Source of the DNA: Chitinophagales bacterium
Lineage (GTDB): Bacteria; Bacteroidota; Bacteroidia; Chitinophagales; CAIODY01
Length of the DNA: 40,615 nt
Reading direction: 5' to 3'
Assembly (NCBI GenBank): GCA_947449695.1
Contig: CANFST010000025.1
Span: 1-40,615, forward strand
Part shown: in pieces, positions 30,842 through 32,370 of the stretch
Position numbering within the stretch: the stretch's first letter is position 1
Layout of the letters: each line of letters starts with the position of its first letter
Made by a program: the position numbers and the translations under genes
The notes under the pieces: generated by a model
Seen by the model: only the letters and a program-made list of their open reading frames with translations
What the model was told of the DNA's origin: nothing
Databases searched by the model: none

Positions 30842-31675
30842 CTACTGCAAAGCAAAATGCAGCATAGTCCAATTCTTATCTACAGTTTGATTAAATAACT
30901 TCAAATTTAACTTTGTAGATAATTCCAAAAAATCGTTCACATCGTTTTCATAAAAACCACTCAGCAATATTTGTCCGTTGGGGTTTATCAATTTTGCATA
31001 CAAAGGCAAATTAGCTAAGTTGAAATTTTTAGTGATGTTGGATACAATCACATCATACTTAACATTTTTATCCAACAATTTTTCATCACCTAGTTTTACT
31101 ATAATCTTTTTGCAATCATTACCAAGGCAATTTTCTTTTGCATTCTCATAAGCCCATCCATCATTATCAATGGCTAAAATAGAGGTTGCACCAGCCATTT
31201 CAGCATAAATAGCTAACACAGCAGTTCCGCTGCCCATATCTAACACTGTTTTATTTTGTAAATCTAGATTCAACATTTCAGTCAATACTAATTTAGTAGT
31301 GTTGTGATGTCCTGTTCCAAAACTCATTTTGGGTTGAATTGTAATGGTGTGTTTTACATCCTTGCGCTCGGGATGAAATAAAGCTCTGACATAAATTTTA
31401 TCTGCAATTAAAACAGGCTCGAAGTTTTTTTCCCATTCTTCATTCCAGTTTTTATTTGGTTGTGTAGTAAAAATGTAATCTTCTTTTTTGATTGAAAAAG
31501 CTGCTAAGGTTTCAAAGATTTCATTTTCATTCAATAATTCTTGCGGACAATAAGCCAGCAATTCATTTTCATTTTGAACAAATCCTTCAAAATTATTTTC
31601 AGCCAAAACAGCCACTAAAATTTCTTGTAATTCTTCATTTGCCTGCAATTGCAGTTCGATGTAATTATTATTCAT
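30842..31675 (-). CDS. prmA: Ribosomal protein L11 methyltransferase
   Basis: A 277-residue class I S-adenosylmethionine enzyme that methylates Lys residues and the N-terminus of ribosomal protein L11. The N-terminal substrate-recognition domain (NNNYIELQLQANEELQEILVAVLAENNFEGFVQ) is of Bacteroidota type. The core has KMSFGTGHHNTTKL, SAM motif I VLDMGSGTAVLAIYAEMAGA, DNDGWAYENAKENC (motif II) and YDVIVSNITKNF (the catalytic NxxxN-like strand). It is complete. The preceding DUF6580 gene on the same strand is separated from it by 120 nt containing strong secondary structure that ends in a terminator only 21 nt before this start, so expression may be controlled by read-through. Confidence 0.94.
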   Translation of the reverse strand: MNNNYIELQLQANEELQEILVAVLAENNFEGFVQNENELLAYCPQELLNENEIFETLAAFSIKKEDYIFTTQPNKNWNEEWEKNFEPVLIADKIYVRALFHPERKDVKHTITIQPKMSFGTGHHNTTKLVLTEMLNLDLQNKTVLDMGSGTAVLAIYAEMAGATSILAIDNDGWAYENAKENCLGNDCKKIIVKLGDEKLLDKNVKYDVIVSNITKNFNLANLPLYAKLINPNGQILLSGFYENDVNDFLELSTKLNLKLFNQTVDKNWTMLHFALQ

Positions 31676-31696
31676 GTTGCGATTAATAAAAAGGAA

Positions 31697-31731
31697 AAGG
31701 TGGAGACAGTAACCATCAACTGCTCCACCTT
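31697..31731 (-). terminator. Terminator-like hairpin immediately upstream of prmA
   Basis: On the minus strand AAGGTGGAGCAG (31731-31720) pairs with CTG-T-CTCCACCTT (31709-31697), one bulged base, 10-nt loop. TTTTCCTTTTTATT follows directly. It has the form of an intrinsic terminator for the DUF6580 transcript, but ends just 21 nt before the prmA ATG, too close to leave room for a separate prmA promoter. Confidence 0.7.
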
Positions 31732-31732
31732 A

Positions 31733-31783
31733 ATTCACACTTTAACCAAAAAAACCAACTCTTTAAGCGATGTGTGAATCGCT
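31733..31783 (-). promoter_or_regulatory. Structured RNA leader between the DUF6580 gene and prmA, with competing pairings
   Basis: On the minus strand AGCGAT (31783-31778) and ATCGCT (31771-31766) form a hairpin around a 6-nt TCACAC loop. The overlapping 8-mer ATTCACAC (31779-31772) is also perfectly complementary to GTGTGAAT at 31740-31733. The two pairings share bases, so a pseudoknot or a switch between folds is possible. The terminator-like hairpin follows at once. It matches no riboswitch class I know; a SAM-I core is not present. Confidence 0.4.
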
Positions 31784-31795
31784 ATTAAATATTTG

Positions 31796-32332
31796 TTACG
31801 CCTTGGCTTTAACTAACCAATTTGTTTGTTTGATCCATTCAAAAATGCCAAACAACACTGTGCTGAAGAATAAGTCACCAGCAACTGTGTTACCAAAAAA
31901 CGGAATTGCACTAATGTAACAAGTAATCAACCCTGCGAAATCTTTACTATACATTGTGTTGGGCATTACCCAAACACCAAAATTTGTAACTAAAAAGAAA
32001 ATAAGAGAAGATAATAATGATATCAAAACCAATCTTCCTGCTGAAAATTTATTTCTTAAAGCTACAAAACCAAGTAAACCTATTAATGCAAAACTGCTAT
32101 AAGTAAAGAACATTGTGTTATGAAATCCAATGAAGCAATCACTTACAAACATTACTAACATTGGTATTCCGAAAGCCAACTTACCATTTTTCAAATTCGC
32201 TGCACCAAATAATGCAATAGCTGCAATAGGTGAAAAATTTAAAAGAATATTATAGTGAAAGTTAAAAACTCTGAACATTACAGCCGAAATCATCAATACA
32301 ACAATCACTAATAAATACTTGTTCAATCGCAT
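31796..32332 (-). CDS. DUF6580 family membrane protein (putative transporter)
   Basis: A 178-residue, strongly hydrophobic protein with about five membrane segments: VIVVLMISAVMF near the start, then SPIAAIALFGAANLKNGKLAFGIPMLVMFVSD, and two more pairs up to LFFSTVLFGIFEW. This is the family labelled DUF6580 in Bacteroidota, whose layout recalls the small substrate-binding (S) subunits of ECF vitamin transporters. The substrate is unknown and no ECF ATPase genes are present. A -7 element lies at 32363-32370. The 120 nt after it, before prmA, are highly structured. Confidence 0.8.
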   Translation of the reverse strand: MRLNKYLLVIVVLMISAVMFRVFNFHYNILLNFSPIAAIALFGAANLKNGKLAFGIPMLVMFVSDCFIGFHNTMFFTYSSFALIGLLGFVALRNKFSAGRLVLISLLSSLIFFLVTNFGVWVMPNTMYSKDFAGLITCYISAIPFFGNTVAGDLFFSTVLFGIFEWIKQTNWLVKAKA

Positions 32333-32362: not shown

Positions 32363-32370
32363 CAAATATA
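32363..32370 (-). promoter_or_regulatory. -7 promoter element of the DUF6580 gene
   Basis: TATATTTGCC on the minus strand contains an exact TAnnTTTG match, 30 nt before the ATG at 32332. No well-spaced TTG is present upstream. Confidence 0.42.

Follow-up and report, generated by a model that had tools for sequence, protein, structure and literature searches.

Architecture of the DUF6580-prmA spacer

The window analysed here is a 40,615-nt stretch from the genome of a Chitinophagales bacterium (G000, 3.14 Mb in 99 contigs), on whose minus strand a DUF6580 gene, a 120-nt spacer and prmA follow one another (Table 1). We compared five homologues of this spacer: those of the window, of L032 (genome G001, from the same genus as G000), of L033 (G005), and of L009 and L012 (G003 and G004, from a second genus). 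At all five loci the RNA-like element described below has DUF6580 as its upstream and prmA as its downstream partner. Among the matches listed in a search of 99 relatives, this adjacency is confined to the family of the window's genome, and the nearest DUF6580/prmA pair outside the family lies about 8 kb apart on one contig of G087. Neither gene nor the element has a match in the sixth family genome (G002, 83% complete), which is uninformative.

Table 1. Positions of genes and predicted features at the locus and of the candidate RNA-B loci.
Feature	Position	Strand	Remarks
DUF6580 gene	31796..32332	-	178 aa; PF20221, E 2.6e-48
prmA	30842..31675	-	277 aa; PF06325 and NF001785
Likely -7 box of the DUF6580 promoter	32363..32370	-	TATATTTG; from the promoter model
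5' hairpin AGCGAT/ATCGCT	31766..31783	-	other lineages have a hairpin of different sequence at the same place
Linker TTGGTTTTTTTGGTTAAAGTGTGAATT	31732..31758	-	27 nt, invariant in five homologues; proposed pairing region
Terminator hairpin AAGGTGGAGCAGT / ACTG-T-CTCCACCTT	31697..31731	-	both arms invariant in five homologues
Terminator loop TGATGGTT	31711..31718	-	second proposed pairing site
U-rich tail TTTTCCTTTTT	31688..31698	-	overlaps the hairpin foot
RNA-B, G000	L196 about 1420-1580 (G000:C46)	-	candidate small RNA gene next to cinA
RNA-B, G001	L190 (G001:C43)		counterpart of the G000 locus
RNA-B-like sequence	L194 around 1500 (G003:C6), L193 around 610 (G004:C46)		directly after a UDP-GlcNAc 2-epimerase gene (PF02350)

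The first-pass annotation of this DNA had read the spacer either as an attenuator-like leader of prmA or as a 3'-UTR-derived small RNA, and the parts it listed are all there: a minus-strand 6-bp hairpin between the two genes (AGCGAT-TCACAC-ATCGCT), an ATTCACAC (31779-31772) that can pair with GTGTGAAT (31740-31733) 31 nt further on, and a strong hairpin that stops 21 nt short of the prmA start codon and has a U-rich tail. The best 5' stems span 6, 6, 6, 5 and 5 bp in the window, L032, L033, L009 and L012, with three different stem sequences across the lineages, each after the DUF6580 stop. Taken singly, these 5' hairpins go only weakly beyond chance, being matched by 57-224 of 2000 dinucleotide shuffles; that of the window is equalled or bettered by 87 of 2000.

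The second hairpin has a 13-bp stem interrupted by a single bulged U (folding energy on its own -19.3 kcal/mol), and its tail is broken by CC. A simple terminator scan returned no sites, which we think is due to the bulged U; hairpin and U-rich tail stand before prmA in all five homologues and are predicted to form an intrinsic terminator. Compared with dinucleotide shuffles, fold stability reaches z -3.0 over 161 nt and z -4.6 over 96 nt. The terminator loop varies, being TGTATGGTT in L009 and L012 and TTTATGGTT in L033. With a gene of the same direction on either side and a predicted terminator at its end, the element has the placement of intra-operonic or 3'-UTR-derived small RNAs. A candidate leader peptide noticed by eye after the AUG of the loop (MVTVSTFSF) was rejected, as its end differs in each lineage and third positions of its codons vary no more than the others; a length change of 1 nt before the AUG is neutral to it.

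Conservation and distribution of the core

The core of the element (31758-31688) is nearly invariant in five of the six family genomes against flanking genes that have diverged, and this is what is new at the locus. Between TTGG and the last base of the T tract, the window, L033 and L009, which stand for three lineages, agree in 69 of 72 columns, and the alignment of all five sequences has the same near-invariance. Amino-acid identity to the window in L032, L033, L009 and L012, respectively, is 63, 49, 41 and 41% for DUF6580 and 87, 55, 42 and 41% for prmA (where the L033 gene is cut by the contig end), and identity at the fourfold-degenerate sites of DUF6580 and prmA is 56/62, 46/38, 38/32 and 21/19%. 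That the flanking fourfold sites have diverged while the core has hardly changed argues for selection on the RNA or DNA sequence itself, both stem arms included. As judged from the sequences compared, the strong signal is the conservation of linker and terminator.

The same picture emerges when the 18.6 kb surrounding the locus are searched against G003, G004 and G005, with 51 matches listed. No listed stretch is better conserved than the element in G003 (87% over 107 bp) or G004 (88% over 101 bp), and in G005 the element falls within a 220-bp match of 75%, the top identity in that genome; the other matches listed in the three genomes have 65-81%. With diverged flanks and the same place at all five loci, the element is unlikely to owe its conservation to gene conversion by recent transfer. 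Conservation in close relatives, on which the first-pass annotation had staked its proposal, is therefore clear.

An ordinary terminator that ends DUF6580 and is conserved only through the constraint on an operon end would have the usual layout of hairpin and U-rich tail seen here, and two weak look-alikes of the element in other families, described below, resemble ordinary gene ends. Such a terminator needs its stem and tail but not an invariant sequence, and here the 27-nt linker is invariant as well, next to fourfold sites that have diverged; we hold this explanation to be improbable.

The element is single-copy, with one instance in each of the five family genomes that carry it, G000 included. 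Using strict filters and 12 candidates scored per genome, settings at which diverged relatives could be missed, neither the 390 further genomes from the order (DNA core and covariance model) nor the 394 from the class (covariance model) gave us a confident homologue, both sets being samples of larger groups. Searched with the DNA core at E values up to 10, the 396 order genomes yielded only weak short matches outside the family; six of these were read in context and discarded, the best (G182) being taken as coding (ORF of 626 aa) and the others judged by eye. The covariance model (R1) retrieved from the same 396 genomes the five family genomes and weak matches in G130 and G050 (E 0.001-0.002), which on reading resemble ordinary gene ends and were set aside, and from 395 class genomes the window's own match alone. 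The G130 look-alike (L172 1501-1562, G130:C392; 37 bits, E 0.001) lies between a gene end and an ORF taken by eye for pssA, and consists of GGTTTTTTTGGTTTA followed by a GGTGGTG/CACCACC hairpin; the likeness is probably due to chance or convergence.

No match to the element was found in plasmids, nor an exact 25-mer match in viral contigs, and six phage records matched it only in short parts, over 18-27% of the query at E 1-4. Rfam 15 has no match at gathering threshold in the window and none over the element in L009, L012, L032 and L033, so that the earlier statement that no known riboswitch class is recognisable holds for this release. Below threshold, the window matches mir-1175 (28 of 51 bits) and SIB (12.8 of 56); the former, an animal family, matches 31692-31737 on the plus strand (E 9.8e-5), which we take as a hairpin look-alike. 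Our literature search returned nothing on this element, on DUF6580, or on small RNAs, Bacteroidetes and prmA in combination.

Predicted promoters and the possible origin of a transcript

A two-box promoter model trained on 314 upstream regions, sampled from G000 and G003, recovers the Bacteroidota box TAnnTTTG, which k-mer enrichment shows independently; a box of this type is named for sigma-A in the description given by PMC9723704. Upstream regions score a median of 8.5 under this model, 90% of them at 13.6 or less, and the DUF6580 promoter reaches 12.4 in the window, 14.7 in L009 and 11.8 in L032. There is no consistent promoter directly before the element across the homologues: among sites whose -7 box falls in the linker the best reaches 6.2, 6.2, 8.0, 11.4 and 11.4 in the window, L032, L033, L009 and L012, and a site located at the stop codon of DUF6580 reaches 12.2, but in L012 only. 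A separate 5' end would consequently need processing, and under this model the RNA would most simply be derived from the DUF6580 transcript in this way. The earlier observation that the terminator leaves no room for a later promoter is sound, the distance from T tract to ATG being 12 nt in the window and L032, 18 in L033, and 5 in L009 and L012.

The linker sites could instead mark a weak prmA promoter (-7 box TTTTTTTG), with the hairpin then lying in the prmA leader. The scores of L009, L012 and L033, where a -7-like GTTTTTTTGG is combined with a -33-like box, speak for it, but those of the window and L032 fall below the median of upstream regions and the invariance of the whole core would be left unexplained, and we give this promoter a small probability.

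A second RNA-like locus

The linker 16-mer TTTGGTTAAAGTGTGA has three exact copies in G000 and three in G001, located in the element, in antisense orientation within the leader of a gene of the ExbB/TolQ family (PF01618), and beside cinA (PF02464). Read on the opposite strand, the copy beside cinA belongs to a candidate small RNA gene, which we call RNA-B, with a promoter (TTTTGC-19-TATATTTG; score 14.8 in both genomes), a leader that includes the linker complement, and a terminator-like hairpin; 80 of 82 bases from the promoter to the end of the linker are identical between G000 and G001. The RNA-B-like sequence of G003 and G004 is the 3' tail of the epimerase gene, convergent with a ComM-like Mg-chelatase gene; it runs into a terminator-like hairpin and has no recognisable promoter (best scores 4.6 and 6.2). 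On the minus strand of the G000 locus, L196 1-121 (G000:C46) carries a Cobalamin riboswitch (46.9 bits at a gathering threshold of 31.5) that is cut by the locus end.

RNA-B is complementary to the linker over 17 nt in the genus of G000 and G001 and over 19 nt in G003 and G004. It is also complementary to the terminator loop, over 8 nt (AACCATCA) in the former and over 10 nt (TAACCATACA) in the latter, where three letters of the match are the stop codon of the epimerase gene. RNA-B changes together with the loop, which is TGATGGTT in the first genus and TGTATGGTT in the second, and pairs from the wrong genus reach only 7 and 6 nt. Shuffles of RNA-B equal the loop match in 128 and 45 of 20000 cases, for a match found after the fact, by a search with the linker, and in two lineages only. 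RNA-B is present, with its loop complement matched to the lineage, in four of the six family genomes; the linker 16-mer with up to two mismatches did not find it in G005 (89% complete) or G002. If the pairing holds, the lineage with the L033 loop TTTATGGTT should have an RNA-B that carries TAACCATAAA before the linker complement.

Candidate mRNA targets

With up to two mismatches, the linker 16-mer has 31 matches in the family genomes and its reversed control 44, so there is no overall excess. Apart from one near-match without a locus, left unclassified, these comprise five in the element, 13 in coding sequence, four in RNA-B, and eight that lie antisense 10-18 nt before a start codon. The eight belong to four gene families, assigned by Pfam: exbB/tolQ (G000, G001), dnaB (G001), hup (G003, G004, G005) and a ferredoxin gene (G003, G004). 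Shuffled seeds give 0.13 leader matches per 682 sampled genes which, scaled to an estimated 12,500 genes or so, amounts to about 2.4 expected against eight rows, or four independent genes. Duplex energies for hup are -25.2 to -27.0 kcal/mol in G003-G005 and -14 to -15 in G000/G001, and the pairing beats all 319 sampled start regions of G003; for exbB they are -23 to -24 in G000/G001, weaker in G002 and ordinary in G003/G004. The hup leaders (L255, L254 and L256 in G003, G004 and G005) contain a near-complete linker complement just before the gene. Compared with G000 and G001, the ExbB-type leader motif is degraded in G002 (CACTTTTTAACTAAAA; L266, G002:C300), in whose assembly the locus of the element is missing.

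A general set of mRNA targets finds no support in the genome samples. Start-region complementarity to the linker is not enriched there, 9 of 60 and 38 of 60 shuffled linkers doing as well over the ten best sites, and the 16-mer with up to two mismatches occurs in the sampled start regions of none of 682 genes. The only seed above chance is CACACTTTAACCAAAA with up to three mismatches (4 matches vs 1.4; 16/300), other seeds having mostly no excess, and core 10-mers are not over-represented (227 seen vs 201 expected in G000; 98 and 100 in G003). The k-mers enriched before and after sampled genes are promoter and terminator words, not the linker complement. At the level of whole genomes, the best additional match of the DNA core in G003-G005 (E 0.0035-0.0043) beats the best of all but six of the 390 order genomes outside the family, and that in G000 and G001 (E about 0.055) is unremarkable.

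We consider hup, exbB/tolQ, dnaB and the ferredoxin gene suggestive as targets, and not more than that, since the leaders are A-rich and G-poor and similar motifs occur in families that lack the element (G317, G229). That the motif recurs at several gene starts would also be expected of a regulator's DNA-binding site shared with hup, exbB, dnaB and the ferredoxin gene. In all eight rows, however, it has one orientation and a distance of 10-18 nt to the start codon, which fits RNA better, and leader composition may contribute to the recurrence; a DNA site appears very improbable to us.

Possible attenuation or pairing in trans

The first-pass annotation had proposed that the 5' hairpin switches to the pairing of ATTCACAC, and in this form attenuation is not sustained. 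ATTCACAC exists in two of five homologues only, the window and its sister species L032, and is absent from L033, L009 and L012. In the window the 8-bp alternative pair is equalled by 13 of 2000 shuffles and is rarer than the 5' hairpin, but the longest Watson-Crick pairings of the upstream 46 nt with AAAGTGTGAATT in L033, L009 and L012 are 4, 5 and 3 nt, lengths that shuffles reach just as well (1555, 511 and 1998 of 2000). The pairing as described also competes with the 5' hairpin and not with the terminator, and RNAalifold on the five homologues predicts no conserved alternative to the terminator hairpin. One of 27 predicted pairs is changed on both sides in the five-homologue alignment, whose automatic construction leaves the 5' hairpins of the lineages out of register. 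A pairing of the last DUF6580 codons with the linker in the alignment fold has one-sided changes only and was given no weight.

A cis-acting transcription attenuator for prmA could work otherwise, with the nascent leader sensing a protein, a metabolite or RNA-B and the terminator being formed or avoided in response. The terminator stands 21 nt before prmA on the same strand at all five loci, a later promoter has no room, the invariant linker could serve as a binding site, and RNA-B could act on the nascent RNA at its linker and loop. An attenuator can usually accommodate compensatory changes, yet here both stem arms are invariant in sequence; with the alternative pairing in only two of five homologues and no conserved antiterminator pairing in the alignment fold, we regard cis attenuation as possible but rather unlikely.

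Of the two readings first offered, the 3'-UTR-derived small RNA gains from the invariant linker and terminator and from the complementary second locus, and the attenuator switch falls away. An intra-operonic small RNA fits better than the proposed switch, as far as sequence comparison can tell. Given the observed conservation, synteny, hairpins and complementarity, the element has the look of a regulatory RNA, seen here in a single small family of bacteria, and we put at about even the prospect that it is an intra-operonic small RNA (RNA-A) that pairs in trans, with RNA-B as its antagonist or partner. RNA-A would be a separate RNA of roughly 95-110 nt from between DUF6580 and prmA, ending at its own terminator, so that transcription of prmA would depend on read-through. 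Through its unstructured linker and its terminator loop, RNA-A would base-pair with other RNAs in the cell. One partner would be RNA-B, whose contiguous or nearly contiguous complement spans linker and loop and which might act as an antagonist or sponge; the leaders of hup, exbB/tolQ, dnaB and the ferredoxin gene, in which a complement to the linker lies 10-18 nt ahead of the start codon, may be targets.

Cis attenuation and the trans-pairing small RNA could also be one system. RNA-B, made elsewhere, would bind the nascent linker and terminator loop simultaneously and so set read-through into prmA, while the same linker pairs with the hup and exbB-type leaders; we judge this combination unlikely, but if true it would amount to a transcription switch built in nature from two RNAs. 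Known partners are few among the small RNAs of Bacteroidota, and a conserved core with a second locus that matches it twice and changes with it makes a concrete and easily tested RNA-RNA pair. It may also link the gene of the L11 methyltransferase to control at the RNA level.

Comparison with known systems

In enterobacterial sponge and antisense RNA pairs, which are Hfq-based, the second RNA mimics the targets of the first. RNA-B would be alike in being such a second RNA and would differ in its setting, as we found no Hfq (PF17209) in the six family genomes, with five of 14 control genomes positive, and its sponge action is only proposed.

Within Bacteroidota, Rfp18 of Flavobacterium psychrophilum is likewise a lineage-conserved small RNA with targets predicted by pairing, and differs, as far as the description in PMC9723704 goes, in its metalloprotease targets, its three stem-loops and its testing by deletion. 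GibS of Bacteroides thetaiotaomicron is described as an Hfq-less small RNA with a conserved single-stranded pairing region that pairs near translation starts (PMC7366714), and the same source suggests that the AT-rich small RNAs of Bacteroidota may need extended seeds. By this description the element is GibS-like in its phylum, in the lack of Hfq and in its conserved linker as the proposed pairing region, whereas GibS is intergenic with its seed in the 5' portion and the element lies inside a gene pair with its linker between two hairpins. The intra-operonic, inter-CDS small RNA BTnc069, as described in PMC7366714, also has a same-strand gene on either side and a terminator or processing site at its end, a likeness by description to an element that is known from its sequence.
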